61,476 bases of DNA, taken from a virus. The stretch covers positions 1 to 61,476 of the IMG/VR virus record IMGVR_UViG_3300035670_000213. One strand, given 5' to 3'. A model generated the notes under the pieces. It had not been told where the DNA came from. It saw nothing but the letters and a program-made list of their open reading frames with translations, and made no database searches. The position numbers and the translations under genes were made by a program. Numbering within the stretch: the stretch's first letter is position 1; each line of letters opens with the position of its first letter. Below, in pieces: positions 9,078-58,221 of this stretch.

Positions 9078-11604
9078 TAAGAAAACCAGATCGATTGCTG
9101 ATATAATTGGAGCTAGTAATAGAGAAGTAGCCAAAAATATCGATGCCCTTTCTTCTCAATTATCCGAATTAACTAATCTTATCATCGAAGATAGAAAGTT
9201 AAAAGAAACCGAATCAAAGAAAAGGTCTTCATTAGATCGTAGGATAGCGATACAGGATGCCAAACAAAAAGCCATAAATCTTGCATACGAAAGCGAGTTA
9301 AAAGAATTATCATCGGAAAGAAGATCAATTGGATTCAAGATTAATTCTCTCTTAGCAGAAGAGAAGAAGATTCAAGCAGAAGAGAAAAAGAAGTCGGAGG
9401 AGGAAGCCAGAGCATATACATCTCAAGCCGAAAAAGCATATGCTTCTGGTGATTTCGTAAGTGGTTTATTCTTGTCGTTTTTGGGTAGAAATGAACCTAC
9501 AAAGGAAGAACAAAAAGAAGCAGCAAAGAAAGAAGCCGCAGTAGAACGTGAGGCCCTACTAGGTGAGTTAGAGAAACAGAGAAAAGATCTAAAAGAACAA
9601 CAAAAGGCACTTCGTTCTGAACTTAAAACAGAATTGAAAAGTGGATTTGCTACTTTCAATAAATCGCTAATTGAATTAAAAGAAGACGAGACGGCTATAC
9701 TAAGAGATACTATAGATGACGTATCTAAAGAATCAATTATACCAAAAATTATTAATGTTCATATTGTATCACTCGATAAAAAGATACATAATAAGATTGA
9801 CAAATTAATAGATGGGGTAAATGAATTAAAATACACGAATAAGGGATTCGGATTACCTTTTACCGGAAATCAAATTTTTCCTAGTGGCAATTTACCAAAA
9901 GGAACCTCTACACTAGGAAGAGTCGGTCGTCTAGCAGGAAAGGCAGCTATCCCATTAACGATTGCTATGGGCGCATATGATGCTTTTATGGGTGGCACGG
10001 ATATTGGTGTCAATAAAATACTTCCTTCCAGACGTGGAAAAGAAACCACACCTATATCTCTAGCAGAAAGAGTTAGATCCGGAAAATCTTCTATGTTATC
10101 CGGATTAACTTTAGGATTCATTAGTCCAGAGACAATCGCAAAAGCAATGGAATCTCCTTTCGGTCAGTTAATCGAGAAAATGGGAAATATACTGAACCCA
10201 TTAATCGAAATACCTTTAATACTAGAGAAATTGTATGATAATTTACCTAGCGTATTGAAAACTAAACCAAAAAAACTAGAACCATCGGATATTAAGGCAC
10301 CGTCAAGAGAATCTTATGTATCTCCTTCAGTGAAAGAATCTATCGACAAAACATTCGAAGATCCTAAACTAAAAAACATGGTTCAGCAAATAATTATATC
10401 TGAATCTGGTGGTAAGAAAGATATCATAAATGCGGTAGGTGCTGCCGGATTATATCAATTTACCCAAAGTACTGCAAAAGATATCGCCAAGAAAACTGGT
10501 AGAGAAGATATCATTAGAGAAATCGAAGGCACAAAAATAATTAAATTTACTGAAGATCCTACAGTAAAAACGTTAAGTAAACAAGGAAAGAGTGAAGAAT
10601 TATCTCAGTATATAAAAGCAACTTATCCAGAATCAACTGCTGTTGCGGTGTCTAAACTATCAGAAGAACAGCAAACTGCAATGTACAAACAATTTCTTAG
10701 ACCGCTAATTGAGTATAAAGGTTCTGATATAGCAGTCGAAGATATTAAGTCATATGGATTCGCACCAAAATATCTTGATGCAGTAAAATCAGGAAATATG
10801 AATACTGTATTATATGACAGGGATAGTCAGGCATTTAAGTGGAATCCTGTGTTTGAAAAATGGGATTTAGATCGAAATGGATTGACTGCTCAGGAATTAT
10901 TGAATGGCGTTTCGTCTATGATGAAAAACAACCAATCAAATAATACAACCAAAAAACAATCCCCTTCTAAGATTACTCCATACGAATCCACTTCATCGGA
11001 AATCAAATCACTTGAATCGGATTATAATAAGTTGGGTAATGCTCCAGAAAATTCTGAGATGCGTAAAACTTTAGCGAAAAAAATACAAATCAACAGAAAC
11101 AAACTAGTGCAAATGGAAAAACGTTCTGATCTAAGATTCAAAGAAATCGATACTGGTTCGTTAGATTACAAAACGAAGTATCCGCAGATATACTCCGAGT
11201 TAGACAAAGAACGTTCGAATGAAATATCGAGTGGAAGAATACAGAAAGATATATATGGTAACCCTTTATCTGTAGCCGAAAGATTGCGTTATAGGCAAAT
11301 ATATGAAGATAAAACCGGATTATCTTCCTCTGAAGAAGGTTTATCTTACAATAAAATTAAAGAAAGAGTTAATGAAATATTAGTCCAAAATAACACACCT
11401 AAATCTTCGTCTGTTAATGTGGGGGCTGTGGTCGAAGATCGTCGAGCAATGGAACCAAGCAATACTTCACCAATGACTAGTATAAATGCACCGACAGTAA
11501 ACAATATATCCAATAACACTGTGTCGAGCGTTAGAGAAAAACCAAGAGATGTATTCTATCCAGAATCAATGTATTTACAGAGAATATTTGGAATACCGGG
11601 TTAA
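9061..11604 (+). CDS. tape-measure-like tail protein with lytic-transglycosylase-like motif
   Basis: 847 residues. Residues about 1-230 are charged and coiled-coil (E/K/A-rich with FGF hinges); about 290-370 is Gly/Ala-rich and partly hydrophobic, like tape-measure membrane segments. Residues 444-475 read IIISESGG, then NAVGAAGLYQFTQSTA, a soluble-lytic-transglycosylase/goose-lysozyme-like catalytic pattern with candidate catalytic E448. The remainder is polar and low-complexity. It directly follows the candidate tail-chaperone frameshift pair, the classical place of a tape measure. T4 gp29 is 590 residues and lacks a muralytic domain, so the assignment rests on context and composition. Confidence 0.65.
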   Translation: MAKKLSKKTRSIADIIGASNREVAKNIDALSSQLSELTNLIIEDRKLKETESKKRSSLDRRIAIQDAKQKAINLAYESELKELSSERRSIGFKINSLLAEEKKIQAEEKKKSEEEARAYTSQAEKAYASGDFVSGLFLSFLGRNEPTKEEQKEAAKKEAAVEREALLGELEKQRKDLKEQQKALRSELKTELKSGFATFNKSLIELKEDETAILRDTIDDVSKESIIPKIINVHIVSLDKKIHNKIDKLIDGVNELKYTNKGFGLPFTGNQIFPSGNLPKGTSTLGRVGRLAGKAAIPLTIAMGAYDAFMGGTDIGVNKILPSRRGKETTPISLAERVRSGKSSMLSGLTLGFISPETIAKAMESPFGQLIEKMGNILNPLIEIPLILEKLYDNLPSVLKTKPKKLEPSDIKAPSRESYVSPSVKESIDKTFEDPKLKNMVQQIIISESGGKKDIINAVGAAGLYQFTQSTAKDIAKKTGREDIIREIEGTKIIKFTEDPTVKTLSKQGKSEELSQYIKATYPESTAVAVSKLSEEQQTAMYKQFLRPLIEYKGSDIAVEDIKSYGFAPKYLDAVKSGNMNTVLYDRDSQAFKWNPVFEKWDLDRNGLTAQELLNGVSSMMKNNQSNNTTKKQSPSKITPYESTSSEIKSLESDYNKLGNAPENSEMRKTLAKKIQINRNKLVQMEKRSDLRFKEIDTGSLDYKTKYPQIYSELDKERSNEISSGRIQKDIYGNPLSVAERLRYRQIYEDKTGLSSSEEGLSYNKIKERVNEILVQNNTPKSSSVNVGAVVEDRRAMEPSNTSPMTSINAPTVNNISNNTVSSVREKPRDVFYPESMYLQRIFGIPG

Positions 11605-11617
11605 ACTAAATAAGAAT

Positions 11618-13690
11618 ATGCCAAAAACATTCAGAGATATAAAAGAAGAGTTACTATTGGAATATGAATTTGGGTTTCTTAGACCGGGGAAGACTCCATA
11701 TAGAAAATATGGTAGTAATACTAGTAGTGGATATGACCATACGGCATTAGCACAGAAACTTGGTTATAATTACGATAAAGAACGAGGAGCCGTAGAAAAC
11801 GCATTAATCGGTGGTAATATCAGATACTGGTACATACCGAAAGGTGATTTTAATGCACTGACACATAAATTCAGTGAAATCGCTAGAGTTGGCTACGAAT
11901 TCATAAATGAACCAGACCAAAGAGAATTGGTGAACAAACATCTAAAAAAGATTCGTGGAGCAAGTGAAATTATTTTTGATATATATGACCCAACAACAAA
12001 ACGACACAAATCACAAGAATTTCGCAGTGCCGAAGATGCTTTGAAATTTCTAGGAGAATCTACTGAACCCATGATATCAGAAATCAGAAAATCAGAGAAG
12101 ATTCTAGGTAAGGAAAAAAAACTAGAGGGTTACGGTCATGCCGCCGCCTTAAAGTGGATCAAAGATAATAACATAGATCCAGACACACATGCGGTCACCA
12201 TGACTAGTATCCCCAAGGTTGGTATCAATCCTGGTTCAAAATATAATACACCAATTGGTATTTACTTTTATCCGATGGAGTATTATATTAAAACAATCGA
12301 AAAAGAAGAAAGACTACCTTTCGCACACGGTGAAAAATATATCAACATCTTGAAATTCAAATCCAACAAGATACTAGATTTGTCTAAATATGATTCGGTA
12401 TTCGATATAAATCAAATCGAATCGCTCGCCAACAATGAAAAAGTTAAAGAACAAACAAAAGATTTCATTGATTTAAGTTATACTGGTTCTAGGACAAGAA
12501 CAGATGGCGGTAGATTGTGGTATGTGCTAATGGCACTTTCTAATTATCTATCCATATCTAAATCTAAAATATTCAAGAAATCATATAAAGCTTCTATCAT
12601 CTGGAACTGGTTGATTAGACAAATGGGTTACGATATTGTCATTGATCCGGATGATGAAGGCATTATACATGAAAATGAACCGACCCAAGGATTCGCAACT
12701 TCATTAAAGAGTATCCAGTGGGTGAAAACATTCGATAATGTCGATGACTATAGTCTTAGTCAAAGAAAAGGTATATTTATATTGAATGATCCAGATGCAC
12801 CAGATTCAGAAAAAATGGATATATTGAAGAACCAACCTGAACTAATAACTGGTATGAATAATCCATCTGATGTAATGAAGTGGGCGGCTATTAAATCGAG
12901 ATCATATATCATACAATTTATAAAAAACCCTACCGAAGAAATGCAGGAGTTTGTCGTAGAACGAGATTATAATAATATCAGATGGATATTAGAACCAACT
13001 CAAAAAGTTAGAAGGTTAGTTATTGATGAAACACTCGGTAATATATTCAATAAAGTAGCCACTTCAATATTTACTGAAGATGATATGATTTACGCTGTCG
13101 AAAAATACCCAGAATCAATTAGATATATGTATGAACCATCAGAAAAAGTTCAGTTATTGGCATTCAGTAAGATTGCACCACGAAATCTAGAATGGGTTGC
13201 AGGTATCATTTTTGATGAATTATCCGACAAAGTAAAGGCTCTAATAGCAGATAGATTAGAGAACAAAAACGAAACTACGTCGGTTCTAAAAAAATATTAT
13301 CATGGAACAAGCGATATATATCTGAATAATATATTAAAATATGGTTTAAGACCAAACAAAGAAGGTAAAATTTATATTACAACAAACCAATTAATAGCAA
13401 AAGTCGAAGCCTTCAATACAACATATGGTGATATGGGTTATGGTATTATGAAATGGCCACCTGAACCACATGAACTAAAATCTAAAGGTGTTGGTGGTAA
13501 TGCGATTGTCGTTGAATTAGAATTATCGAATAAAGATGTATCCAATATTAAAAAGGATAAAGAATATTTCGATGAAGATGAAGCATATTATATCGAAACA
13601 AAAATACCGCCATCCGCCCTTGTAACATCTAAAAATTACGGAAAAAATCCAACTAAAGATGTGATCGATTATGTAACTGGTGCTGAATAA
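11618..13690 (+). CDS. large protein with two ADP-ribosyltransferase-like regions and helical repeats
   Basis: 690 residues from ATG 11618; an upstream in-frame extension would run into the previous gene and is not preferred. Residues about 180-365 contain TPIGIYFYP and, near 351-357, HENEPTQ, which look like the STS-type and ARTT/ExQ-type motifs of ADP-ribosyltransferases. Residues about 410-545 contain repeats of the form I-x-x-I-K/L-N-P-T/S-E-E-x-Q. Residues 560-690 contain YYHGTS (H562), then a Y-rich strand and EAYYIETKIP, like the H-Y-E class. It may be a virion or early effector analogous in concept to T4 Alt, but substrate and activity are not evident. A strong terminator follows. Confidence 0.5.
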   Translation: MPKTFRDIKEELLLEYEFGFLRPGKTPYRKYGSNTSSGYDHTALAQKLGYNYDKERGAVENALIGGNIRYWYIPKGDFNALTHKFSEIARVGYEFINEPDQRELVNKHLKKIRGASEIIFDIYDPTTKRHKSQEFRSAEDALKFLGESTEPMISEIRKSEKILGKEKKLEGYGHAAALKWIKDNNIDPDTHAVTMTSIPKVGINPGSKYNTPIGIYFYPMEYYIKTIEKEERLPFAHGEKYINILKFKSNKILDLSKYDSVFDINQIESLANNEKVKEQTKDFIDLSYTGSRTRTDGGRLWYVLMALSNYLSISKSKIFKKSYKASIIWNWLIRQMGYDIVIDPDDEGIIHENEPTQGFATSLKSIQWVKTFDNVDDYSLSQRKGIFILNDPDAPDSEKMDILKNQPELITGMNNPSDVMKWAAIKSRSYIIQFIKNPTEEMQEFVVERDYNNIRWILEPTQKVRRLVIDETLGNIFNKVATSIFTEDDMIYAVEKYPESIRYMYEPSEKVQLLAFSKIAPRNLEWVAGIIFDELSDKVKALIADRLENKNETTSVLKKYYHGTSDIYLNNILKYGLRPNKEGKIYITTNQLIAKVEAFNTTYGDMGYGIMKWPPEPHELKSKGVGGNAIVVELELSNKDVSNIKKDKEYFDEDEAYYIETKIPPSALVTSKNYGKNPTKDVIDYVTGAE

Positions 13691-13700: not shown

Positions 13701-14045
13701 TTAATCAGGAATCTTCCAATCGCCACCATTCACTCTGCATTTAGTAATGGTGGCTTTTTTTCGTTCACCATCAATAATTACAGCAATCTCGAATTCTTTA
13801 CATTCGATTTTCTCTTCATAAGAACATTCTCGGGTTCCTTCGGTATAAGATCTCTCCTGTGTTTTCTTACCGATAACATATCCGATAACACCCGCACCGA
13901 TACCAATGGCTGCTGCCGCCCCAGGACTCACCCTATTATCATGTCTGTAATATCCCATTCTATTCGGGTAATACTTTCGATACAACCAATGTTCGGCAAT
14001 GAGAGAATTAGATAATACTAGAAGAACCAGAATCTTTGCTAACAT
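13701..14045 (-). CDS. small exported glycine-zipper protein
   Basis: 114 residues. A signal-peptide-like start (MLAKILVLLVLSNSLIAEH) is followed by a basic Tyr-rich stretch and then AAAAIGIGAGVIGYVIGKK, a glycine-zipper hydrophobic segment. The carboxy part has four cysteines. It is probably envelope-targeted; function unknown. Its last codons double as the stem-loop of the terminator for the convergent plus-strand gene. Its first 38 bases overlap the gene upstream. Confidence 0.7.
   Translation of the reverse strand: MLAKILVLLVLSNSLIAEHWLYRKYYPNRMGYYRHDNRVSPGAAAAIGIGAGVIGYVIGKKTQERSYTEGTRECSYEEKIECKEFEIAVIIDGERKKATITKCRVNGGDWKIPD
13722..13761 (+). terminator. rho-independent terminator for the ART-like gene
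   Basis: GCCACCATT (13722-13730) pairs perfectly with AATGGTGGC (13746-13754) and is followed by seven T. It lies inside the 3' coding end of the convergent minus-strand gene. Confidence 0.85.
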
Positions 14046-14337
14046 ATTTGTTGATATCCTTCGGGTTAATGATCTTTAAATCTATGATATTCTCAATACG
14101 AAAAGATCTATACTCACTCTTATTTAGATCGAATGCGGATATGATAGATCTATTGTCTTCTTTAATCTTGTCAGTTTTTTTCTCGTATACAGGAACGAAA
14201 TCAGAACTTTTCGTGCATAACATTGTTCTGATATCACCACATTTCTTCACAAAAGTAACTAGACAAAGATTGTTGTATAACTTCTTCAATAGATCGGTAC
14301 GATATTCTAGAAGTTCTTCTACGGTATCAAATCTCAT
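14008..14337 (-). CDS. conserved phage protein (DUF2693-like)
   Basis: 109 residues. LVTFVKKCGDIRTMLCT followed by AFDLNKSEYRSFRIENI is the pattern of a family of short T4-like phage proteins (DUF2693-like, WYL/SH3-type strands) of unknown function. The carboxy tail is Ser-rich. It overlaps both neighbours, by 38 and 4 bases, showing translational coupling within one minus-strand operon. Confidence 0.65.
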   Translation of the reverse strand: MRFDTVEELLEYRTDLLKKLYNNLCLVTFVKKCGDIRTMLCTKSSDFVPVYEKKTDKIKEDNRSIISAFDLNKSEYRSFRIENIIDLKIINPKDINKYVSKDSGSSSII

Positions 14338-14630
14338 CGATCACCCTCGAATTCAAGTAGAATTTGCTTACTGGCTGACTCATGATTCATGTTAATGAGA
14401 AGAATAATATTGTGAATTGCTTTGTAGAGATCCTTAGGATTTCTGCCTTCTTTCTTTCCGTATCGAGCTAGATACTCGATAGCATTGGAAATGTAGGAGG
14501 ACTCAGCATGTCCTATAGAAGCGAGTAAATCATTAACTTGAATTCCATTCCCGCCAACATAATGAGAGGAATAAGTTGATTCGATATATTTCTCTACATC
14601 AGATAAGATCTTCTTTTCATTGTACTTCAT
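14334..14630 (-). CDS. small helical protein, DUF3310-like
   Basis: 98 residues. The carboxy half, IEYLARYGKK then PKDLYKAIHNIILLI, resembles the DUF3310 family of small phage proteins often found with nucleotide-metabolism genes. Here it directly follows the dCMP deaminase gene. Family match is moderate and the biochemical role is unknown. Confidence 0.55.
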   Translation of the reverse strand: MKYNEKKILSDVEKYIESTYSSHYVGGNGIQVNDLLASIGHAESSYISNAIEYLARYGKKEGRNPKDLYKAIHNIILLINMNHESASKQILLEFEGDR

Positions 14631-14631: not shown

Positions 14632-15138
14632 TCAAACTCCCCATAGATTATCTAGATCTTCTTTTTCTAACATATCACCGTTCATGTTATCCTCACCGTG
14701 TATCACGAGAGAAACTTTAGCTTGCCTGAACATCTCAATCGTTCTTGATTCGTGATCCTGATAAATAGAATCCGCTTTCCTGAAAGCATTTATATTCTTA
14801 GGTGAAATAATAACTTGTTTAATACCAGATTGAATAATTCCTCTTGCACAATCCACACACGGAAAATGTGAAACATACATCGTGCATCCATTTACACTAT
14901 TTCCCATTCTAGCTGCATTATAGATAGCATTACGTTCGGCATGTTCCACCCAATGATATTTCTCAGGTTTCTCCCACTTAATCGGATCGGATTCATTCAT
15001 TCCCCGGACCATTCCATTAAATCCGGTTGATCTGATTTCATGCTCGTTTCCGACTATGATAGCAGAAGTCTTAGTCTTGTCTTTCGATTTTATTGAAATA
15101 TAATCGAGTAAATTAATGAAGTATTCATCCCAAGTCAT
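14632..15138 (-). CDS. cd: dCMP deaminase
   Basis: 168 residues. The zinc site is complete: HAE at residues 66-68 and PCVDC at 93-97, the hallmark of the cytidine/deoxycytidylate deaminase fold. Length and the opening MTWDEYFINLLDYISIKSKD match phage dCMP deaminases, which feed dUMP for thymidylate synthesis. It overlaps the NADAR gene upstream by four bases. No thymidylate synthase is in this window; a dUTPase lies at 41858. Confidence 0.92.
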   Translation of the reverse strand: MTWDEYFINLLDYISIKSKDKTKTSAIIVGNEHEIRSTGFNGMVRGMNESDPIKWEKPEKYHWVEHAERNAIYNAARMGNSVNGCTMYVSHFPCVDCARGIIQSGIKQVIISPKNINAFRKADSIYQDHESRTIEMFRQAKVSLVIHGEDNMNGDMLEKEDLDNLWGV

Positions 15139-15635
15139 GTGTAGTAGATTAATCCTAGATCGTCACGAACTTCAGTTAGAACTTGTCCTAGCCAATTTGT
15201 TCCTTGCCATTCTTGGGGTCGAGTACAACGTGGGTCTTCGATTCCCATACCAATACCCCAGATTCTATCTGATGGCGAACATTCCACAAATTCACCCGGT
15301 TCTTCCATTAGGATTTTGAGTAATCCTCGATTACTTGTGAACTTAGCCATGTTACCCATATACACAAATGTCTTCGCTAATGAATTCCAAAGATCGGCAT
15401 CGAAGTTAGGAATCATTCTCCCTAATGCCTTACACTCTGCCGGATGTTTTGCGTTCAAGATATCATTTTCCAGTGGACCTTTGAATAAGCGATTCTTCGC
15501 CCACATCATGTACATTTCTGCATTCATGAACTCAATACCATCTAATACAAAATTGGCCGGATACCATTGCGAAAACACCCCACCGTAAAATAAGATATAT
15601 CCATCTGTTGCAATATAATTATTTGTGTATTTCAT
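15135..15635 (-). CDS. NADAR / YbiA-like N-glycosidase domain protein
   Basis: 166 residues. FYGGVFSQWYPANFVLDG at the start, then AEMYMMWAKNRLF, ILNAKHPAECKALGR and a closing GTNWLGQVLTEVRDDL are the conserved blocks of the NADAR (DUF1768, YbiA) fold. Members cleave N-glycosidic bonds in riboflavin intermediates or ADP-ribose-guanine adducts; phage-encoded members have been linked to reversal of DNA ADP-ribosylation. Its neighbours include cREC, SLOG and macro-domain genes. The substrate here is inferred only. Confidence 0.85.
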   Translation of the reverse strand: MKYTNNYIATDGYILFYGGVFSQWYPANFVLDGIEFMNAEMYMMWAKNRLFKGPLENDILNAKHPAECKALGRMIPNFDADLWNSLAKTFVYMGNMAKFTSNRGLLKILMEEPGEFVECSPSDRIWGIGMGIEDPRCTRPQEWQGTNWLGQVLTEVRDDLGLIYYT

Positions 15636-15691
15636 TTATCACTCACTCCACAACACTTCTTCTTCTTCACTTCTTCTTCTTTAATCGGCAT
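15632..15691 (-). CDS. possible 19-residue peptide gene
   Basis: ATG at 15689-15691 is preceded by AAGGATT, and the stop overlaps the NADAR start as ATGA. The product MPIKEEEVKKKKCCGVSDK is charged with a Cys pair. It may be a real minigene or only a coupling leader for NADAR. Confidence 0.35.
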   Translation of the reverse strand: MPIKEEEVKKKKCCGVSDK

Positions 15692-15701
15692 AAGCAATCC
15701 T

Positions 15702-16121
15702 TCAACTAAATCCTTTATGTGTTATCGGACCGTGTAAGTCAAGATAACTTTGTTCATCTTTGATTCCTTTTAGGATCGACTGGATTTGAAGAAATGGGAC
15801 ATAATGTTTCGTCGGATTGGGCGTCCCAAAATGTTCGGCGATAATATCACACATCCTCTTAGCACCAACAGGATTCAACGAATGAACTATACATGTATCC
15901 TTTGGCCACTTATCATTTTCTAACATCCAGAGAACGAAATCGTATCCGGTCTTCTCTTCTGTTTGTTTATCTTCGTAATGTTCTGGTGCCAGATCATGAT
16001 CCAACCAAGCTTCTTCGATTTCATACGAAGACATGATAGCAACTGCTTCGTCATAATTCTTGGCGATTTTCCAATTACCGATGAAAGGACAAGGACGTAC
16101 ATCGTCTAACCAAAGTTTCAT
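15702..16121 (-). CDS. cREC-like (cyclic-phosphate-processing receiver) domain protein
   Basis: 139 residues. MKLWLDDVRPCP, then YEIEEAWLDHDLAPE, GYDFVLWMLEN and IVHSLNPVGAKRM match the receiver-like cREC domain predicted to act on cyclic-phosphate nucleic-acid ends and often seen beside RNA-repair and NAD-related genes. The acidic pair LDDVRP and the DHD triad would form the metal site. It overlaps the next gene by four bases. The function is a family prediction. Confidence 0.7.
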   Translation of the reverse strand: MKLWLDDVRPCPFIGNWKIAKNYDEAVAIMSSYEIEEAWLDHDLAPEHYEDKQTEEKTGYDFVLWMLENDKWPKDTCIVHSLNPVGAKRMCDIIAEHFGTPNPTKHYVPFLQIQSILKGIKDEQSYLDLHGPITHKGFS

Positions 16122-16516
16122 GATTCGTATTTTTCCTTTAACTCTTTGAGTAATTGGCGCTCTTTTTCTTCTTTATCGGATTGGATTCGTGCTAAAATTT
16201 CTCTTTTTTTCTGCTCGTCATATTCAATCCGCTTCTGTTCCGCTTTTCGTTCTGCTTCGATAACCTCTTCGATGGGGAGAGTTAAATATTGTGTTGGGAA
16301 CTTAATATCATGACTATCATCATAGTCATAAAAATTCTCAAGTCTTACAGTAGTTTCGAAATTTCCCACAGAGACATCGGCAGCAATATACCGTTCGTCG
16401 CATCCGGGTTTTATTAGATTTCTAATTATGGCAACCTCTATTGCTATTTTTTTGCACATAGAGTCAATCACATTTTTCGATTCTATATAATCTCGAACTT
16501 GTTTTTCCGTTATCAT
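16118..16516 (-). CDS. unknown protein with carboxy-terminal coiled coil
   Basis: 132 residues from ATG 16514-16516, chosen because it forms an ATGA overlap with the upstream stop and has GGGG at a proper distance; a start five codons earlier is less well placed. Residues 1-85 are mixed alpha/beta without a recognised motif, and about 88-132 form a K/E/R-rich helix. It is translationally coupled within the SLOG-macro operon. Confidence 0.6.
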   Translation of the reverse strand: MITEKQVRDYIESKNVIDSMCKKIAIEVAIIRNLIKPGCDERYIAADVSVGNFETTVRLENFYDYDDSHDIKFPTQYLTLPIEEVIEAERKAEQKRIEYDEQKKREILARIQSDKEEKERQLLKELKEKYES

Positions 16517-16776
16517 TGTGATACACCCCATTCCTCATGACCACAATGGTCACATTTACTAATCAACTTCTTCGCTTTCGCTTCTTCGATATAACGTTCC
16601 GCTTCGAACGGTCCTAGCGCACAATGCACAGAACTAAGACGCTTAATCTTACCTTTTGAATTTTTTCGATAAGGAACATAATTCATATGATATGAACCAT
16701 ATTCATCTTCATATGATTCATTTTCTACATAGTAGATTATCTCTTCACCATTCTCAATTCGTTTGATTTCTTTCAT
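16513..16776 (-). CDS. small protein with C-terminal CxxCGH zinc-knuckle
   Basis: 87 residues. The amino part is rich in Tyr and acidic residues; the end carries CDHCGHEEWG, a plausible half zinc site. It overlaps the genes on both sides by four bases (ATGA), so it belongs to the same cistronic run. No family recognised. Confidence 0.6.
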   Translation of the reverse strand: MKEIKRIENGEEIIYYVENESYEDEYGSYHMNYVPYRKNSKGKIKRLSSVHCALGPFEAERYIEEAKAKKLISKCDHCGHEEWGVSQ

Positions 16777-17192
16777 ATAATAATCAATCTCTTATTAAGT
16801 ATAGCATCTTTTTCTGATAATGTCAACTTTTTGAGGAATTTTTTTATCGTATCTTCTGTTCCGCCTTTTCTGTCAGGCGATACCAAAGCAATTAATATAT
16901 CAGAATCTCTTGCTATCAATCCGTTTCTTGCATATGCAACTCTGGAATATGCGACTCTTTTTGGAACACCATCAGCCACCAACCTATAATACTCTTCCTC
17001 ATCCGGATTATGAATTATGATCGGGATACCACTCGATTCAGCAATAAATTCGGCGAATGCATCACCACCTTTTTTGCAACCACCAGAAACCAGAGTAATA
17101 TCATCATCGATGAAATCCGATAACGCATTTATCAAACCAATTACATCATCACGACCTGTTCGTTTTCTGGAACCTATGATACCGATATTCAT
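16773..17192 (-). CDS. SLOG-like (LOG/DprA Rossmann) nucleotide-binding protein
   Basis: 139 residues. MNIGIIGSRKRTG at the start, VSGGCKKGGDAFAEFIA in the middle and DILIALVSPDRKGGTEDTIK near the end reproduce the G-S-R, S-G-G-x-x-G-x-D and GGT(E/x)D motifs of the SLOG superfamily, which bind or process nucleotides including NAD-derived molecules. It overlaps the macro-domain gene by four bases. Confidence 0.75.
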   Translation of the reverse strand: MNIGIIGSRKRTGRDDVIGLINALSDFIDDDITLVSGGCKKGGDAFAEFIAESSGIPIIIHNPDEEEYYRLVADGVPKRVAYSRVAYARNGLIARDSDILIALVSPDRKGGTEDTIKKFLKKLTLSEKDAILNKRLIII

Positions 17193-17680
17193 CGTCTATC
17201 GTCGTATACAACCATAGTCACTTCGATGATATCTTCGGTTTCTTCGGCGAAGTCCAAGAGAATATCAATCACCCTCGATAAGCTTCCGCCAGCCAATCCA
17301 CACCCAATCTTAGGGAATCCGATAGATATCTTTTCTTGTATATCTTGGTTCTTCTTAATCTCGATTACTTCTTCTTTAATTCGTTTTAGTACTGTCTTGA
17401 ATGCATCATATTCAAACACATCACCATATCTAGAATAAGTGTATTGAGTATATGCATTGAATATATCAAACTTACCTGTATGGAAGGCGCTGAACGTCCC
17501 GAGTTTTTCTTTATCTGCAATCTTCGTCAGACGATCCACTTCTGCCGCACCGGGATATTTGATTGCAATTTGTCCTGCGATACCGGATCCCATCGCATGA
17601 AAACAATTACAACCATGCACAATAATATGGAAGTCACCACGCTCTGCTAATTCTAATAGATCGCCTCTGATAATTCTCAT
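17189..17680 (-). CDS. macro domain protein (ADP-ribose binding or hydrolysis)
   Basis: 163 residues, a single macro domain. MRIIRGDLLELAERGDFHIIVHGCNC contains the strand-1 and N-C pair typical of the fold (given here as two parts: RGDLLELA and VHGCNC), followed by AMGSGIAGQIA, the ADP-ribose diphosphate loop, and IGFPKIGCGLAGG, the second loop. Macro domains bind ADP-ribose or remove it from proteins and DNA (DarG-type). AAGGATT precedes ATG. It leads the operon with the SLOG, zinc-knuckle, coiled-coil, cREC and NADAR genes downstream. Confidence 0.88.
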   Translation of the reverse strand: MRIIRGDLLELAERGDFHIIVHGCNCFHAMGSGIAGQIAIKYPGAAEVDRLTKIADKEKLGTFSAFHTGKFDIFNAYTQYTYSRYGDVFEYDAFKTVLKRIKEEVIEIKKNQDIQEKISIGFPKIGCGLAGGSLSRVIDILLDFAEETEDIIEVTMVVYDDRR

Positions 17681-17785: not shown

Positions 17786-18004
17786 CTAACCGTTACTGAT
17801 AAAGTCGTTAAACTTCTCGGCTTCGGCAATGATTTGCTCTGTAGTTGGTAACTTAGGAAGCTTAGGATAATCAATATCCTTTCCTTCACGATTCGAATGA
17901 TATTCATCAATCAAAGCTTCTCTTGTTTGCATCACTGGAAGTTCCAGTACATCCTTAGCCAACTTCAATACTTCTAAACGAATTTCATATGGTGTTTTTC
18001 CCAT
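17786..18004 (-). CDS. small conserved phage protein of unknown function
   Basis: 72 residues starting MGKTPYEIRLEVLKLAKDVL, a helical opening seen in many short proteins of T4-like aquatic phages; a proline-rich linker and a second helix follow. AGGAG lies just before ATG. No function can be assigned. Confidence 0.7.
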   Translation of the reverse strand: MGKTPYEIRLEVLKLAKDVLELPVMQTREALIDEYHSNREGKDIDYPKLPKLPTTEQIIAEAEKFNDFISNG

Positions 18005-18222: not shown

Positions 18223-18298
18223 TGGAGCCGGATATCAGAGTCGAACTGATAACCCCCTGCTTACAAGACAGGTGCTCTGCCAATTGAGCTAACCCGGC
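18223..18298 (-). tRNA. tRNA-Thr (anticodon TGT)
   Basis: Full cloverleaf: acceptor GCCGGGT pairs with ATCCGGC, anticodon stem CCTGT/GCAGG encloses loop CTTGTAA, and the T arm holds TTCGACT. The 3' CCA is encoded (18223-18225). The anticodon reads ACA and wobble partners. Confidence 0.95.
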
Positions 18299-18303
18299 AA
18301 ATA

Positions 18304-18447
18304 CTATGGAACAATCAATTTTACATAACTATTATAATCATTATTCTCACCAACCCATTGTTTAGCTTCTTCTTCGGTCTTGAATGCAGCTATTGGCTCC
18401 GACATACCATAATAACCGTAATCTTCGAAACAAACATAAATTTCCAT
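18304..18447 (-). CDS. small acidic protein, tandem paralogue A
   Basis: 47 residues, beginning MEIYVCFEDYGYYGMS and containing AAFKTEEEAKQWV. It lies between two tRNAs and is the second copy of a tandem duplication with the gene at 18450. The pattern (beta strand, loop, EEEAKQW helix) looks like a minimal antiparallel domain. Function unknown. Confidence 0.65.
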   Translation of the reverse strand: MEIYVCFEDYGYYGMSEPIAAFKTEEEAKQWVGENNDYNSYVKLIVP

Positions 18448-18449
18448 AG

Positions 18450-18605
18450 TTATTCCTCAACAACCAATTTTACATAGTCATTTTTTCCTATTATAGATTT
18501 GTTTTCAACAACCCATTGTTTAGCTTCTTCTTCGGTCTTGAATGCTGCAATTGGTTGCGACATACCATCATAATCGTAGTCTTCGAAACAAACGTAAATT
18601 TCCAT
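18450..18605 (-). CDS. small acidic protein, tandem paralogue B
   Basis: 51 residues. It differs from the copy at 18304 at a few positions in the first 32 residues (identical block AAFKTEEEAKQWV) and has a longer carboxy end. The stop is two bases before the start of the downstream copy, so the pair is probably translated together. Function unknown. Confidence 0.65.
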   Translation of the reverse strand: MEIYVCFEDYDYDGMSQPIAAFKTEEEAKQWVVENKSIIGKNDYVKLVVEE

Positions 18606-18708
18606 CACTCATTCCTTCATAATTTAATCTTGGTTGCGGATTTTTACAGTCTCTGGGTTTATTATTCACTCCCCTTACTGTGGGTGACTAATGCCACAAG
18701 CCGCATCT

Positions 18709-18786
18709 TGGCTCCCTTGGAGGGATTCGAACCCACAACCTTTCGGGTAACAGCCGAACGCTCTACCAGGATTGAGCTACAAGGGA
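18709..18786 (-). tRNA. tRNA-Asn (anticodon GTT)
   Basis: Acceptor TCCCTTG/CAAGGGA, D arm GCTC...GAGC, anticodon stem TTCGG/CCGAA with loop CTGTTAC, and T loop TTCGAAT are all present; CCA is encoded. One T-T mismatch lies in the T stem. Confidence 0.93.
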
Positions 18787-18836
18787 AAAAATTTAATAAA
18801 AACTTATTTTATATCTTCGAACAAATTAGATTATGC

Positions 18837-19481
18837 TTAAACTTTTCTACCTCTATACCATCCTTCTGGGATAGGATCATTATTTTTAATCTTTTTATTT
18901 TCAGAACCATTTGTAATCCAATGCGTTCCAAATTGAGAATTCAAATTACCAGAATGTTTACCTTTTTGAGAGGATGACATTTTTTGTTTCGTTTCTTCTT
19001 TATGAGTTTTACCAAAAAAAGTTCCTTTAGGATATTTTTCTTGTAATATTGCTGCTGCTTTAATTGCATTGTCTTTCATTTTATTCCTGAAAGCAATATC
19101 TGTATTATACTTATGGCTCAACCTATCGGATCTTTCTTTATTTGTCCATAATTGCTTTAGTCTTTTCTCGGTCATGAATAAATCCGGATTAGAATTTATA
19201 TATCCAAATCCACCTGTTCCACCAATGCATATATTATATGTGTTTTTGTTTTCACAAAAATCTTCAGTGACAATCTCTTTCTCTTTTTTGTCCATTAAAT
19301 CTTCATTATCGAATATAAAGAGTATATCTTTTTTGAAATTATCTTTTCCATATTTAGAAATGGCGTTCTTAATAAGTTTTCCTGAACCCATATAATCATC
19401 ATTCAAATTTTCTGTTTGGTGTTTTCCTATATAAAATTTTCCATTAATGAGGTTTGTTATTTTATAAATCGTAAAAAACAT
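18837..19481 (-). CDS. GIY-YIG homing endonuclease with NUMOD3-like carboxy end
   Basis: 214 residues from ATG 19481, which has GGAG eight bases upstream; a TTG two codons earlier is less likely. FTIYKITNLINGKFYIGKH carries the GIY-YIG-type catalytic strands (here IYK...YIG), with YMGSGKLIKNAISKYG as the conserved R/K helix region. The carboxy part has FGKTHKEETKQKMSSSQKG, a NUMOD3-like DNA-binding repeat. Placed between tRNA-Asn and tRNA-Pro, it resembles T4 Seg enzymes: free-standing and probably self-spreading. Confidence 0.88.
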   Translation of the reverse strand: MFFTIYKITNLINGKFYIGKHQTENLNDDYMGSGKLIKNAISKYGKDNFKKDILFIFDNEDLMDKKEKEIVTEDFCENKNTYNICIGGTGGFGYINSNPDLFMTEKRLKQLWTNKERSDRLSHKYNTDIAFRNKMKDNAIKAAAILQEKYPKGTFFGKTHKEETKQKMSSSQKGKHSGNLNSQFGTHWITNGSENKKIKNNDPIPEGWYRGRKV

Positions 19482-19545
19482 ATTCAAGCTCCAATATTTA
19501 CTAATCTATTGCATATTAGTATTTAGTAAATAATGAAACTCTATG

Positions 19546-19621
19546 TCTAGAGAGTGGGATTTGAACCCACGTACTTCTGTTTCCAAAACAGACGAGATAA
19601 GCCAGACTCCTCTACCTCCCG
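19546..19621 (-). tRNA. tRNA-Pro (anticodon TGG)
   Basis: Anticodon stem TCTGT/ACAGA encloses loop TTTGGAA; T stem GTGGG/CCCAC encloses TTCAAAT; acceptor CGGGAGG/TCTCTAG has one mismatch. CCA is not encoded, unlike in the other two tRNAs. Confidence 0.88.
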
Positions 19622-20586: not shown

Positions 20587-20760
20587 TCACCGAATGGGTT
20601 TTCCTAAAATATATCTGGTATATCCAAGTTCGGCTTGGTCATAACATGTTTTACAACAAACCCACCCACCGAATGCGCTTAGATATTTGTCAGGCGAATT
20701 CTGAGAATATTCCCCGCCGCACCAAATACAATACAATTCAAAATCAGGCGATTGTTTCAT
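20587..20760 (-). CDS. small zinc-ribbon protein
   Basis: 57 residues. CIWCGG near residues 11-16 and CCKTC at 35-39 form a four-cysteine zinc ribbon. The start overlaps the metallophosphoesterase end by 17 bases. Codons are typical of the region and the frame ends right before the next promoter, supporting a real gene. Role unknown. Confidence 0.65.
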   Translation of the reverse strand: MKQSPDFELYCIWCGGEYSQNSPDKYLSAFGGWVCCKTCYDQAELGYTRYILGKPIR

Positions 20761-21244
20761 GAGTAAGGTTCTCTACCAAATCATATAAATTTACAGGAAA
20801 ATAAGAAGTGTTCTCTACACAAACACAATGATATTTGTCCTTCGGTGTCCATTTGTCATGAACATGACCATATAGATATAAATCGAAATATTTAGGCACA
20901 CGATCAGGATAATGACACAGGAATATCTTCTTATCTAAGATATCCAGATACAAATCATTATGGACAGTTAGGAAGATAGATTCGTCGATGAACTTATCAT
21001 GATTACCACGAATTAAATGTATGTGTCCGTTTAACTGCGATCTATATAACCGTGATACTTCTTTACCGGGACGACCGAAACAAAAATCACCGAGGAAGTA
21101 TACTGTGTCATCGGGTGAGACGACAGAATTCCAATTAGATATAATCGTATGGTCCATTTCTTCGACAGATGCGAACGGACGGTTACAATACTTGATTATG
21201 TTTGCGTGACCTAGATGTAGGTCAGAAATTACCCATATAGCCAT
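20744..21244 (-). CDS. calcineurin-like metallophosphoesterase
   Basis: 166 residues. Motifs in order: DLHLGH (residues 8-13), GDFCFGR, GNHDKF, and GHVHD near the end, giving the complete di-metal site of the calcineurin-like superfamily. The short size fits small phage and bacterial phosphodiesterases such as the YfcE/MJ0936 type. Substrate unknown. Its start overlaps the stop of the gene before it (TAATG). Confidence 0.85.
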   Translation of the reverse strand: MAIWVISDLHLGHANIIKYCNRPFASVEEMDHTIISNWNSVVSPDDTVYFLGDFCFGRPGKEVSRLYRSQLNGHIHLIRGNHDKFIDESIFLTVHNDLYLDILDKKIFLCHYPDRVPKYFDLYLYGHVHDKWTPKDKYHCVCVENTSYFPVNLYDLVENLTHETIA

Positions 21245-21406: not shown

Positions 21407-22102
21407 TTAATGCTCCATGAACCAATCTACCAGAAATTTAACACAGAAGCGATTAACGCTTTCCATATCGACAGATTTGGGTAGTTTTGTATTTAGATAC
21501 GCCTCATCAACTTCTTTCTTCAGGACCTGAAGATGATTATGAAAATCATCTACAGAATACTTTCCGGATCGATATTCGGCACAAACTTCGGCACTCAAAT
21601 CCAGGACGACTTCATTGTAGGTGAATAGGTGCTTTGCTAGTTGTAGTAATCGAACAGTATGGGCGGCACCCTTCACGTCATACCCATGAGTTTCGATTAA
21701 AACCTTTCGCTTCTCTCCGAGTTTTCCGGTTACGTTCTTCGAAGCCTTTTGTTCCTGCGAAAGAGCATAACCAACCAGAGGAGCATATGCCGCCTTACTC
21801 AAGAAGGTATTCCGGAATTCTACTAATCGATGCCCATATTCGTTTGTTTCGGGTGCATAGGATTTCAGGAATAGTAGAGGAACTACATTCGGATTGAATG
21901 AAGAACACATCTGCATGAATTTCTTGAATTCATATGAGATATTATCTTCATTATCGTCGAAGGTTTGAGATGATTTCGGCGTCTTTAATCCGAAGTAATT
22001 ATCCAGATCGGCGACCGAGACAGACATCCAATCTTCGTCGGAATTTTGCGTTGCATAACCGTATGCGTGCGATCCGACTAATCCTTTGAGTATAGTTTTC
22101 AT
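21407..22102 (-). CDS. RlaP-type nucleotidyltransferase (Pol beta superfamily)
   Basis: 231 residues. LVGSHAYGYATQNSDEDWMSV at about 8-28 is the G-S-x-A-Y-G...S-D-x-D metal-binding motif (in parts GSHAYG and SDEDW) of the RNA-ligase-associated RlaP group (PF10127-like). Such enzymes are predicted to act with RNA ligases in RNA repair, perhaps on tRNA ends. The phage also carries Pnkp and Rnl1-like genes elsewhere in the window. The reaction is a family prediction. Confidence 0.82.
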   Translation of the reverse strand: MKTILKGLVGSHAYGYATQNSDEDWMSVSVADLDNYFGLKTPKSSQTFDDNEDNISYEFKKFMQMCSSFNPNVVPLLFLKSYAPETNEYGHRLVEFRNTFLSKAAYAPLVGYALSQEQKASKNVTGKLGEKRKVLIETHGYDVKGAAHTVRLLQLAKHLFTYNEVVLDLSAEVCAEYRSGKYSVDDFHNHLQVLKKEVDEAYLNTKLPKSVDMESVNRFCVKFLVDWFMEH

Positions 22103-28045: not shown

Positions 28046-28066
28046 AATTCTCAAAAATTCAATTTT

Positions 28067-28074
28067 TATAAATA
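28067..28074 (+). promoter_or_regulatory. T4 late promoter TATAAATA for the uvsW-gap endonuclease
   Basis: Perfect consensus on plus, 88 bases before the endonuclease ATG. It faces a minus-strand TATAAATA at 28144-28151. Confidence 0.7.
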
Positions 28075-28110
28075 ATTAATGCGGTTAGATTATTGTAGCG
28101 CAATAATCAA

Positions 28111-28164
28111 CAATAGGATAGTATATTGCTGTCCCGCAAATAATATTTATAGGATAGTATAATG
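28111..28164. repeat. 13-bp direct repeat in the uvsW gap
   Basis: ATAGGATAGTATA occurs twice, near 28113 and 28150, in the short space between uvsW C-half and the endonuclease start. It may be a regulator site or a scar of endonuclease insertion. Confidence 0.55.
28144..28151 (-). promoter_or_regulatory. T4 late promoter TATAAATA for the uvsW C-half
   Basis: Perfect consensus on minus, about 100 bases before ATG 28045. It gives the C-half its own late transcript although it is cut off from the N-half by the antisense endonuclease gene. Confidence 0.7.
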
Positions 28165-29223: not shown

Positions 29224-29710
29224 GTTTAGTTCTCAATTTATGAAGTAGCTTAATATCATCTTCAGAAAGTTCAACATCAATTTGGGTGTCTGGGTGCAGA
29301 CACCCTGTGACTGAAACGACAATAGATCTTTTGCTACAGATACAATTCTTTAACCCATCAATCTGATAATCTCTGGCTTTAATCTCTACCCCACCAGAAA
29401 ATACTTTATTGGTTTCTAAGAATTTATCGGCCTGATCTTCAGAGAATCCTTTGTTATCGAAATCTTGATCGAAGTCGTAATCATTATCTTTCGCATATGA
29501 TTTGATGTAATGTGCAAGACCCTTACCGATTGTATTCGTTCTCTTATTGAGTAATCTTGCATACCCATCCCAAAGTTTCTTTTTGTAGATAGGCATATAT
29601 TTTGCACCAGGAACTTCGAAACTCAAGAGTTCATATAACTCTTGAATAATTCCTGGTTCGGCTTCTACAACGCAATGCGTTTCGTTTAATGATCTTAGGT
29701 ATATTTTCAT
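29204..29710 (-). CDS. uvsW: UvsW helicase, amino part followed by amino half of a split intein
   Basis: 168 residues. The first 136 match the UvsW start (MKIYLRSLNETHCVVEAEPG, GAKYMPIYKKKLWDG, ARDYQIDGL), ending in SIVVSVTG, the first half of Walker A. Residue 137 is Cys, the intein residue 1 (CLHPDTQIDVELSED), and only 32 intein residues follow before the stop: block A only. Cys1 and the C-half HN|S complete a class 1 intein. The short N-intein is the atypical split type. A perfect late promoter and a 6-bp hairpin precede ATG. Confidence 0.93.
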   Translation of the reverse strand: MKIYLRSLNETHCVVEAEPGIIQELYELLSFEVPGAKYMPIYKKKLWDGYARLLNKRTNTIGKGLAHYIKSYAKDNDYDFDQDFDNKGFSEDQADKFLETNKVFSGGVEIKARDYQIDGLKNCICSKRSIVVSVTGCLHPDTQIDVELSEDDIKLLHKLRTKPNPWDT

Positions 29711-38263: not shown

Positions 38264-38338
38264 ATGAAAGAAATGATTAAGGATTTCTCTGCTCTCCTCT
38301 TCTGCGTCGGATCGATTATTCTCTTGGCGGTATTGTAA
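38264..38338 (+). CDS. 24-residue membrane peptide in front of pseT
   Basis: MKEMIKDFSALLFCVGSIILLAVL, given in parts: a short polar start and FSALLFCVGSIILLAVL as one membrane span. ATG 38264 is six bases after TATAAT. Its stop overlaps the pseT start (TAATG), so it may couple pseT translation to a leaderless start. Either a true peptide or a leader. Confidence 0.5.
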   Translation: MKEMIKDFSALLFCVGSIILLAVL

Positions 38339-39300
38339 TGAAAGCTTATATTACCATCGGACTTCCGGCATCCGGAAAGACAACCTGGGCGAAGGATTTC
38401 GCCGATAATAATTCGACTGAGAACAATATCATTATTCGTGTAAATAATGATGATATTCGGAATGCGATTTACGAATTAGCTGGAAATCGCAATTGGTCTG
38501 GGGCAGTCGAAGATGAAGTGAAGAAGAATCGAGAAATTCTTATCACCGCTCGTGCCGCTGTCGGTGCCGATATTATCATCGATAATACTCATCTGAATCC
38601 TAAGACTCTGAACCACATCACCACCTTCTGTAAGTCAAAGGGATATGACATTGAGATTGTCGATTTTCGACACGTCTCTCTCGAAGAGTGTATTCGACGT
38701 GATTCTCTTCGTGAAGGATTTTCTAAGGTCGGAGAAAAGGTAATTCGTGATATGCATAGCAAATTTATGAATTGTGCTGTTGATCGTAACCTACCAGAAT
38801 GGGTTCCAAATTCTCTTCCTAATTGTATTATCGTAGATATCGATGGTACTGTTGCACGAATTGTTTCGAGGGGTCCTTATGATGAATCCTTAGTCTTTAC
38901 CGATGAAGTTCGTCAGCACGTTCTCTTGGTTGTTCGATCTATTATCGAGACGAATCCCGATACACGAGTCTTTTTCTTTTCAGGTCGTTCTGAGGGGTGT
39001 AAGGGTGAGACTATTCGTTGGTTGAATGCGAAGTGTAATATAGCAATCATGAATGAACCACCCATCTTGAAAGATGATTTGAATTTCAATAATCCTATGA
39101 TGATGGCTGATCTGCATATGCGAAAGATCGGTGATCGGCGGCGGGATTCGTTCGTTAAGCTGGATATGTATAACGAGGTCATCAAAGATAAGTACAATGT
39201 AATTTGCGTATTCGATGATCGTCCTCAAGTAATTCGTGAGTGTTGGAAGGTTTTGAATCTTCCTGTGTTGAACTGCGGTGTAATTGATAATGAATTTTGA
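38338..39300 (+). CDS. pseT: polynucleotide 5'-kinase / 3'-phosphatase
   Basis: 320 residues (T4 301). Kinase domain: Walker A GLPASGKTT at 8-16, NNDDIR, and IIDNTHLNP. Phosphatase domain: DIDGT at about 167 and FFFSGRSEG, typical of the HAD-type 3'-phosphatase. It heals RNA or DNA ends left by nucleases such as anticodon nuclease before ligation by the Rnl1-like enzyme at 57115. Early promoter upstream through the 24-residue peptide. Confidence 0.95.
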   Translation: MKAYITIGLPASGKTTWAKDFADNNSTENNIIIRVNNDDIRNAIYELAGNRNWSGAVEDEVKKNREILITARAAVGADIIIDNTHLNPKTLNHITTFCKSKGYDIEIVDFRHVSLEECIRRDSLREGFSKVGEKVIRDMHSKFMNCAVDRNLPEWVPNSLPNCIIVDIDGTVARIVSRGPYDESLVFTDEVRQHVLLVVRSIIETNPDTRVFFFSGRSEGCKGETIRWLNAKCNIAIMNEPPILKDDLNFNNPMMMADLHMRKIGDRRRDSFVKLDMYNEVIKDKYNVICVFDDRPQVIRECWKVLNLPVLNCGVIDNEF

Positions 39301-41644: not shown

Positions 41645-41853
41645 TGAAATCTTGGTTTGATTTCGTCAAATCAATAGAATCTGAAGGAGGATCTGTATTG
41701 ATCCTGATCCTCCTTATTATTCTATTTGCGGCATTTGTGAAACTCGGATTTAAAGACGCAGAATCTCAATTATACTTTATTCTTGGTGCCTTAGTTGGAT
41801 TACTCAAGGGTAAGGGCGGCGCAGATCCTAATGACATTGAGAAGGAAAAATGA
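41644..41853 (+). CDS. small membrane protein, holin-like
   Basis: 69 residues with VLILILLIILFAAFVKLGF and LYFILGALVGLLKG, two short hydrophobic spans and a charged tail, a class-II-holin-like topology. The endolysin gene is 4.3 kb further, so the assignment as holin is only tentative. Confidence 0.5.
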   Translation: MKSWFDFVKSIESEGGSVLILILLIILFAAFVKLGFKDAESQLYFILGALVGLLKGKGGADPNDIEKEK

Positions 41854-57086: not shown

Positions 57087-57115
57087 CAAAAAAGGGAACC
57101 CGAAGGTTCCCTTTT
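57087..57115. terminator. bidirectional rho-independent terminator
   Basis: GGGAACC-CGAA-GGTTCCC with A-run on the left and TTTT on the right; it serves the plus-strand GNAT gene and the convergent RNA ligase. Confidence 0.9.
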
Positions 57116-58221
57116 CATAAATTAATAGTCACATCTAATACTTTTTCTGGTTGAAGTGCAGCCAACCATTCGGTTGCATTCTTCACCTTACCTGATCGTC
57201 GCATATAGAAGTAAGAATGAACCTTCGGAGTGAAATTATCCTGGACATACAAGGCGAATTCCTTTTGGTTCTCGAATACCTCAAAATCAATTTCCGAATA
57301 CCAGAAATCATCTAACATAGCGACAGTCGTATCCACATACTTCTTAATCTCATCGAAACGAACACGCAAATCAGGGAAGTATGCAAACACTTCGGAATCT
57401 TCGCCAGTGCGAATCAATTCAACAATTCGCTTGTCGTTAATTGTGTCCTTTAAGTGATGAATCAAAATGTACTTCTCAGACTTAACCTTGATTCGATTAA
57501 AATTAGAATCGACCAAGACGAAACCTTCTTGGTGAGAAGGATCTAGTTCCTTTGCAGCAGATACAATCTCATCGATAGTTGACATCGAGAAAGATCGAAC
57601 TACATCAAAGCTATCTTTATAGATATCAACCGGAAAATGAATTCCGGATTGAGTATCACGTACACCAATAAGAGTTAGCTTACCTTCATTATCAATCTGA
57701 TTAGTCACAACACGATTGTACTTCGAAGTTAACTCAAAAAGATAAGTGTTACGAGGATCTAGATCGGATTCAAAATAAAGTCCTTCATTGAAGATCTTCC
57801 AGAACAGATCGGCGAAAGTGAAAGATTCTTTTCCGACATTGCCGCCAGCATCGGGTGAACCCTTCGTTGCGACATTCCACTTTCCGGCATAATGATAAAC
57901 AATCATCAAAGAACCATCGATCTTCTCCTGAGCAACAAATGAGTTCCAGTTAAAGATATCCTCATCCACATTCTCGCCCCAATTAAAGAATCGATCAAAA
58001 GGACGTGCGACAATCTTCCAATCATTTGCACGATCAAGAATGATTCCACGAGCCTCCCGGACCATAGGATGATCCTTGATCTTCGACGATTCAATTTGAT
58101 CGTAAGTGAATTGATAGAGATCGGGATATTCACGGTGCTGCTGAGAATAAATTCCGTACTCGGAAGATAACTTCAGCCGATCACCCCAATTTTCGATTAG
58201 AAATTTCTGTAGATGAATCAT
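57115..58221 (-). CDS. rnlA: RNA ligase 1 (T4 RnlA-like)
   Basis: 368 residues (T4 374). Nucleotidyl lysine K100 in EKIDGS (T4 K99), then EARGIILD just before, FELTSKYNRVV, EGFVLVD and IKVKSEKY give motifs I to V. With PseT it reseals tRNA cut by host anticodon nuclease. The start overlaps the next upstream stop by one base. Confidence 0.95.
   Translation of the reverse strand: MIHLQKFLIENWGDRLKLSSEYGIYSQQHREYPDLYQFTYDQIESSKIKDHPMVREARGIILDRANDWKIVARPFDRFFNWGENVDEDIFNWNSFVAQEKIDGSLMIVYHYAGKWNVATKGSPDAGGNVGKESFTFADLFWKIFNEGLYFESDLDPRNTYLFELTSKYNRVVTNQIDNEGKLTLIGVRDTQSGIHFPVDIYKDSFDVVRSFSMSTIDEIVSAAKELDPSHQEGFVLVDSNFNRIKVKSEKYILIHHLKDTINDKRIVELIRTGEDSEVFAYFPDLRVRFDEIKKYVDTTVAMLDDFWYSEIDFEVFENQKEFALYVQDNFTPKVHSYFYMRRSGKVKNATEWLAALQPEKVLDVTINL

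Follow-up and report, generated by a model that had tools for sequence, protein, structure and literature searches.

A tRNA-adjacent SLOG-unkB-cREC block, joined by macro and NADAR genes, in a T4-like phage: a possible clean-up neighbourhood for RNA ends and ADP-ribose

Introduction

The macro, SLOG, cREC (cyclic-phosphate processing receiver) and NADAR families, and their clustering in phages, have already been published as a network. Iyer et al. (2022) described such neighbourhoods, reported a co-occurrence above chance and proposed a role against immune signals (PMC9503650). All four families are encoded in one minus-strand run, from 17680 to 15135, of a viral DNA stretch of 61,476 bases (IMG/VR record IMGVR_UViG_3300035670_000213, hereafter the window), together with two orphan genes, unkA and unkB. 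The source is a T4-like phage, as the presence of gp32, gp59, UvsW, UvsX and baseplate genes indicates, and the best matches of its DNA polymerase are from cyanophages (~48% identity). A first-pass annotation had read the run as an anti-defence unit that reverses ADP-ribosylation and drains NAD-derived signals, a general idea that was thus in print. As far as our searches show, three things are new: a core of SLOG, unkB and cREC that includes a partner family not described before, the constant position of this core behind the tRNA genes of one phage group, and the layering of the other genes upon it.

In the phage network of Iyer et al., the same families are also standalone and clustered in a myovirus-like genome. 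The window differs in joining SLOG, cREC, macro and NADAR to the orphan unkB in a single run after a tRNA array, an exact order not met in the passages of PMC9503650 examined. The same authors linked cREC with sirtuins, calcineurin-like enzymes and RNA ligases (PMC9503650, PMC7824862). As in the cREC-sirtuin-tRNA ligase neighbourhoods of Escherichia phage V5 and Serratia phage BF, cREC of the window lies near a calcineurin-like phosphoesterase gene in a genome that also encodes a polynucleotide kinase/phosphatase and an RNA ligase. However, the latter two genes are far from the cluster, and the Pfam-scanned proteins of this 61-kb fragment include neither a sirtuin nor KptA. The block of Microbacterium phage Cece (genes 153-161, OP068343) reads tRNA array, RNA ligase (PF09414), cREC, macro, RtcB and tRNAs. 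It shares with the window a run of cREC and macro beside tRNAs but contains the RNA ligase and RtcB, and no SLOG, NADAR or unkB was seen there.

Macro and NADAR chemistry is common to the window and to the DarTG and DarT1-NADAR antitoxins. In contrast to those systems, the window enzymes are standalone: no DarT-like toxin was detected by Pfam or PADLOC among the neighbours on both sides, where small family-less genes remain. In T4-like phages, the same two superfamilies are represented by Tk.4 of the T4 group (macro) and T4 gp30.3 (NADAR). In T4, the NADAR gene maps to the region of gene 30, which encodes DNA ligase, and PMC11125620 assigns its product to the His-type gp30.3 group; the window NADAR, in contrast, appears YbiA-like and lies in the same run as macro. 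NADARs, including that of T4, hydrolyse guanine-ADP-ribose in DNA and RNA, and the TARG1-like protein SCO6735 acts on thymidine-ADP-ribose, not on 5'-phosphate ends (PMC11125620, PMC11833690). Results on phage NADARs themselves point both ways: in vitro, T4 gp30.3 takes ADP-ribose off guanine, yet in cells it gave no rescue from DarT1 (PMC11125620).

The gene run and its protein families

The six open reading frames (ORFs) that the first-pass annotation had placed between 17680 and 15135 are all present on the minus strand. Its family names also hold, three above the Pfam cut-offs and SLOG by predicted fold, and the products of the two genes it had left as unknowns, unkA and unkB, have no credible Pfam, PHROG or PADLOC match.

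SLOG (16773..17192, 139 residues) scores 26.7 bits against PF10686, under the cut-off of 28.2. Its AlphaFold model (pLDDT 92.8) is matched by Foldseek to a MoCo carrier protein (E 9.6e-4), to DprA, TM1055 and YpsA (probability 0.98-1.00) and to LOG proteins. Since the predicted fold matches known SLOG proteins, the assignment to the SLOG superfamily stands on that model, despite the Pfam score. cREC (15702..16121, 139 residues) is well above its threshold (PF20274, 89.4 bits, cut-off 27), and residues D6, D7, D41, H42 and D43 and an HSxNP motif are invariant in an alignment of five lineages. Cyclic-phosphate hydrolysis is a predicted activity in the literature as well (PMC9503650).

Between SLOG and cREC is encoded unkB (16513..16776, 87 residues), a β-rich protein with one helix and a CxxC at its C-terminus (model pLDDT 82.9). 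Relatives with 41-56% identity occur in other viral contigs; none was found in 50,697 phage records or in the bacterial genomes searched, and a Foldseek search of the model returned nothing better than E 0.4. A resemblance to HVO_2922 (Z 5.1 over 56 residues, 3.4 Å), with NMB1088 and ATU0232 lower, was too weak to be used. The protein unkA (16118..16531, 137 residues; its start is possibly at 16516) has a charged C-terminus. Scans of viral contigs and phages gave no unkA relative, and the gene is missing from all relatives of the window: unkA is an orphan of this phage.

The macro protein (17189..17680, 163 residues) matches PF01661 (28.8 bits, cut-off 22) and phrog_335 (165 bits). It is related to Tk.4 of RB49-type phages, and its PDB matches are TTHA0132, the macrodomain protein 5e3b and 6lft, an ADP-ribose-1''-phosphate phosphatase. 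The second-best of these solved relatives, 5e3b, is SCO6735. The sequence is TARG1/SCO6735- and Poa1p-like (HGCNCFHAMGSGIA, GFPKIGCGLAGG). NADAR (15135..15635, 166 residues) scores 132.8 bits against PF08719 (cut-off 35.1), has 8bau as structure match and carries the YbiA-like motif VExSPxDxIWGIG. Its best phage matches include YbiA-annotated proteins (~50% identity); a single-sequence scan of viral contigs for NADAR relatives found nothing. Residue E118 (VECSPSD) may occupy the site separating YbiA (Glu) from BC4488 (Asp) and gp30.3 (His) types. It aligns with the Glu of 8bau, and with T4 gp30.3 the alignment is shifted by one there, the comparison covering Glu- and His-type proteins.

The genes had been described as overlapping mostly by ATGA. 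Four of the five junctions do overlap, three of them by the 4-nt ATGA (macro/SLOG, SLOG/unkB and unkA/cREC), but unkB and unkA share 19 nt (4 nt if unkA starts at the internal ATG, 16516), and a 66-nt gap, the sole non-overlapping junction, precedes NADAR. Elsewhere in the window, 22/67 junctions overlap, 8/67 by exactly 4 nt. With a Fisher p of 0.054, the tight packing is only mildly unusual for this genome, and packing alone is thus weak evidence of a functional unit. Nor does the run end at 15135. From NADAR it passes by an ATGA overlap into a dCMP deaminase gene (14632..15138, PF00383, 72.8 bits) and on to genes for a DUF3310 protein (14334..14630, PF11753, 29.1 bits), a WYL_2 protein (14008..14337, PF10902, 45.7 bits) and a small protein with a signal-like N-terminus that is kept in relatives (13701..14045, run end), all on the minus strand, so that a boundary at 15135 is arbitrary. 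As sigma-70 promoters, terminators and T4 late promoters appeared only at shuffle level in a sequence scan, the operon boundary could not be set.

Layered conservation in related phages

Relatives were recovered by scanning viral contigs with SLOG, cREC, unkB and dCMP deaminase, the last chosen as anchor because it does not presuppose NAD genes; the contigs recovered carry L numbers. All records of relatives are fragments, like the window, and absences are stated within these limits. The locus occurs in seven related lineages (L004, L007, L009, L014, L020, L158 and L161). All of them keep cREC beside phage tRNA genes; five keep SLOG and four unkB. Macro and NADAR are confined, in this clade, to the window and its nearest relatives: neither gene was found at the corresponding locus, or anywhere else in the records, of the other related lineages searched.

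The order macro-SLOG-unkB-cREC-NADAR-dCMP deaminase is shared by the window, which alone adds unkA, and by L005-L010, in which a zinc ribbon and a 100-residue ORF lie between cREC and NADAR. L014, L015 and L034 have SLOG-unkB-cREC followed by dCMP deaminase, and L002-L004 have SLOG-unkB-cREC, the dCMP deaminase-DUF3310 part of the L004 record being more than 50 kb off. L017-L020 have SLOG-cREC with other small ORFs, and L158/L066 and L159-L161 have cREC-dCMP deaminase without SLOG. On this evidence, the six-gene set is layered and is not a single module. Of the two unknown genes put forward as candidate new members, unkB, kept with SLOG and cREC in four lineages, is a small orphan family undescribed as a partner of these two proteins and travelling with them; unkA finds no such backing.

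It could be argued that there is no unit at all, the genes being independent accessory genes that a T4-like phage has crowded into a variable site, with nothing but their dense packing to link them. The frequent overlaps elsewhere in the window and the unbroken passage from NADAR into dCMP deaminase, DUF3310 and WYL_2 agree with this, as does the gene content of the site, which differs among relatives by zinc-ribbon, secreted and serine-rich ORFs. It is nevertheless the least likely of the readings considered: SLOG, unkB and cREC stay together in four lineages, including L004 with its distant dCMP deaminase-DUF3310 part, and clusters of SLOG/macro/NADAR and of cREC/macro recur in unrelated phages.

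The restricted distribution of macro and NADAR bears on another possibility, that a thymidine-type, DarT2/DarG-like macro and a guanine-type, DarT1-like NADAR undo the two known kinds of ADP-ribosylation on DNA bases, with SLOG and cREC as bystanders. The macro protein does resemble 5e3b/TARG1-type proteins and, weakly (19.6 bits), the PADLOC DarG model, TARG1-like SCO6735 hydrolyses thymidine-ADP-ribose (PMC11833690), NADARs strip guanine-ADP-ribose from DNA and RNA (PMC11125620, PMC11833690), and the two genes are both present or both absent across the clade. Yet the T4 NADAR gave cells no protection from DarT1 (PMC11125620), and AdfB, a characterised phage counter to DarTG, targets the toxin itself (PMC11481870). 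Moreover, a tree of cREC, dCMP deaminase, DUF3310 and WYL_2 resolves the relation between the window and L007/L009 weakly (supports 59-65), and the shared macro and NADAR state represents one gain, or one retention and one loss. At most one or two events are involved, which cannot be counted as repeated co-selection. As a full account of the run, this explanation is unlikely.

Two further observations concern the locus in relatives. Serine-rich low-complexity ORFs with SGSGSRSWSGYWSWS-type repeats are found on either side of SLOG-cREC in L017 (9258-9909 and 13689-13949). A conserved protein of ~340 residues, which lacks a Pfam match and begins with a signal-like stretch, is encoded near cREC in the NADAR-less L014 (11234-12253), L158 (8462-9490) and L161 (8959-9978).

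tRNA genes and RNA-repair enzymes around the block

In 7/7 related lineages with the locus, phage tRNA genes are closely followed downstream by cREC or SLOG-unkB-cREC, and tRNA-Thr(UGU) is the last or next-to-last tRNA before the cREC block in each. The tRNA and the block come closest in L161, with 8 nt between them. L002-L004 share the order PNKP phosphatase, calcineurin-like phosphoesterase (MPE), tRNA-Pro/Asn/Thr, SLOG, unkB and cREC, in which the first two genes are interspersed with the tRNAs ahead of the block or directly precede them; their MPE is 60% identical to that of the window, and L004 has 20 tRNA genes.

In the window, the array of tRNA-Thr(UGU), tRNA-Asn(GUU) and tRNA-Pro(UGG) occupies 18223..19621 on the minus strand. 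A GIY-YIG-type homing endonuclease lies within it (18837-19487), its DNA being up to ~70% identical to homing endonucleases of many T4-like phages. Between tRNA-Thr and the cluster is encoded a 72-residue protein (17786..18004, minus strand) with no PHROG match, which is 87-90% identical across lineages when neighbouring genes are mostly 50-70% identical. Upstream of the cluster on the same strand are genes for MPE (20744..21244, phrog_547) and for RlaP, of an RNA-repair nucleotidyltransferase family (21407..22102, PF10127, 52.8 bits). Elsewhere in the window are found a T4 PseT-like PNKP kinase-phosphatase (38338..39300, plus strand, HAD_PNKP 109.3 bits and AAA_33) and a T4 Rnl1-type RNA ligase (57115..58221, minus strand, PF09511, 58.0 bits). 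These surroundings, the tRNA array with MPE and RlaP and the presence of PNKP and Rnl1 in the genome, point to RNA repair, a context that the first-pass annotation had not considered.

Related loci in distant phages

The SLOG scan gave 54 viral loci. In a contig unrelated to the window, L054, a cluster of ~13 kb on one strand encodes dCMP deaminase, two SLOGs (one of them PF06908, YpsA-SLOG), Nudix, macro and NADAR; in L044, SLOG and NADAR are ~1 kb apart. Both support independently the published idea of an ADP-ribose network. The first-pass placement of the run in this network thus stands for the families and for their recurrent clustering, not for a single unit. NADAR- or macro-type company is rare among 38 distant SLOG loci.

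Other distant loci bring cREC close to RNA repair. In L174, cREC overlaps RlaP, and Thg1 and Rnl1 are within 7 kb. L053 has more than 30 tRNA genes in an array, and cREC lies 20 nt past one of them, a degenerate SLOG fragment being 6 kb off. In Streptomyces phage Faust, a weak calcineurin-like match is found two genes ahead of cREC. The largely unannotated cREC surroundings of XacN1, JonJames and Faust have no tRNA gene within 6-7 kb. A distant unkB in L144 is encoded two genes past an RNA ligase.

The L054 cluster, which has no tRNAs nearby, and the SLOG-NADAR neighbours of L044 favour a rival view, in which the four enzymes degrade diffusible NAD-derived, cyclic ADP-ribose (cADPR)-type immune signals of Thoeris and its kin. 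This role has been proposed for the families, with the above-chance co-occurrence in DNA viruses (PMC9503650). Against it, most related lineages keep only cREC or SLOG-unkB-cREC, without macro and NADAR, cREC is predicted to target cyclic phosphates and not the glycosidic bonds of cADPR, and no signal-degrading assay for these phage families was found in the literature examined. Applied to this locus, destruction of signals appears doubtful, though likelier than the other rival readings.

Proposed role of the block

A neighbourhood for cleaning RNA ends, with ADP-ribose removers added, is favoured here over a dedicated anti-Thoeris/CBASS unit. Tentatively, and as a distinctly possible account, we read the run as a tRNA-attached accessory block of a T4-like phage that would clean RNA ends and ADP-ribose-linked products during infection. 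This reading takes its departure from the observed anatomy, layering, genomic neighbours and recurrence in unrelated phages, from which we infer substrates and cooperation of the proteins as follows. Host ribotoxins or anticodon nucleases would cut tRNAs, leaving 2',3'-cyclic phosphates. cREC might open the cyclic phosphate of such RNA ends, or that of ADP-ribose 1'',2''-cyclic phosphate made during repair, alongside the MPE, RlaP, PNKP and Rnl1 that this phage also encodes and that would heal and seal the RNA. SLOG, with the small protein unkB for a partner, may process a by-product derived from ADP-ribose. The sublineage of the window would have gained, or alone kept, macro and NADAR on top of this core: macro could cleave ADP-ribose off thymidine, acidic or phosphate sites, or else remove the 1''-phosphate, and NADAR could take ADP-ribose off guanine, so that host ADP-ribosylation of nucleic acids would also be reversible.

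Several points weigh against the RNA-end proposal. PNKP and the RNA ligase of the window are more than 20 kb from the cluster and are ordinary in T4-like phages. Synteny among the related lineages reflects shared ancestry and does not count as independent support. At distant loci, a tRNA lies within 3 kb of ~7/25 cREC genes and of 7/38 SLOG-anchored loci, a small and unconvincing excess, and the tRNA link therefore rests on specific cases and on the literature. The L054 cluster has no tRNA genes nearby. A distant unkB in L186 sits beside an HNH-like gene, not RNA repair, for which reason unkB was dropped as a general marker of RNA-ligase loci. Finally, KptA/Tpt1 is the usual source of ADP-ribose cyclic phosphate. 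Searched for as the missing partner, it was absent from 47/48 records, including all relatives.

A bolder form of the RNA-end proposal, in which SLOG, unkB and cREC form an enzyme module for cyclic-phosphate RNA ends or for a by-product that tRNA repair leaves from ADP-ribose, unkB being a new essential partner and macro and NADAR extending the module to ADP-ribosylated nucleic acid, is improbable in that full extent. The readings are not exclusive: the core of cREC, SLOG and unkB fits RNA ends, and the macro and NADAR pair fits de-ADP-ribosylation.

Other features of the window

The gp43 DNA polymerase (47546-51609) is split into an N part (47546-49648) and a C part (50677-51609). Residues 14-41 of the C part match an intein C-terminal splicing domain, and a 355-residue phrog_22677 ORF lies between the two parts, as in fractured genes with split inteins. 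UvsW (26636-29710, minus strand) is likewise split into UvsW_N (29204-29710) and a helicase (26636-28054), which flank an opposite-strand ORF (28162-29223) with homing-endonuclease matches (phrog_22677, phrog_3339). A third phrog_22677 ORF (54466-55809) is found just past a DnaB-like helicase gene. A phage IMP dehydrogenase (42368-43351) is preceded by a dUTPase (41795-42361). Two large proteins of unknown function (11549-13690 and 30159-31175) both match phrog_17056, in different parts.

Significance

Biochemical activity of phage cREC and SLOG is not demonstrated in the literature examined. A compact block that puts cREC and SLOG together with an orphan partner, tRNA genes and RNA-repair enzymes narrows the candidate substrates. 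It could separate two published ideas on these phage families: the destruction of immune signals, and clean-up after RNA repair and nucleic-acid ADP-ribosylation.

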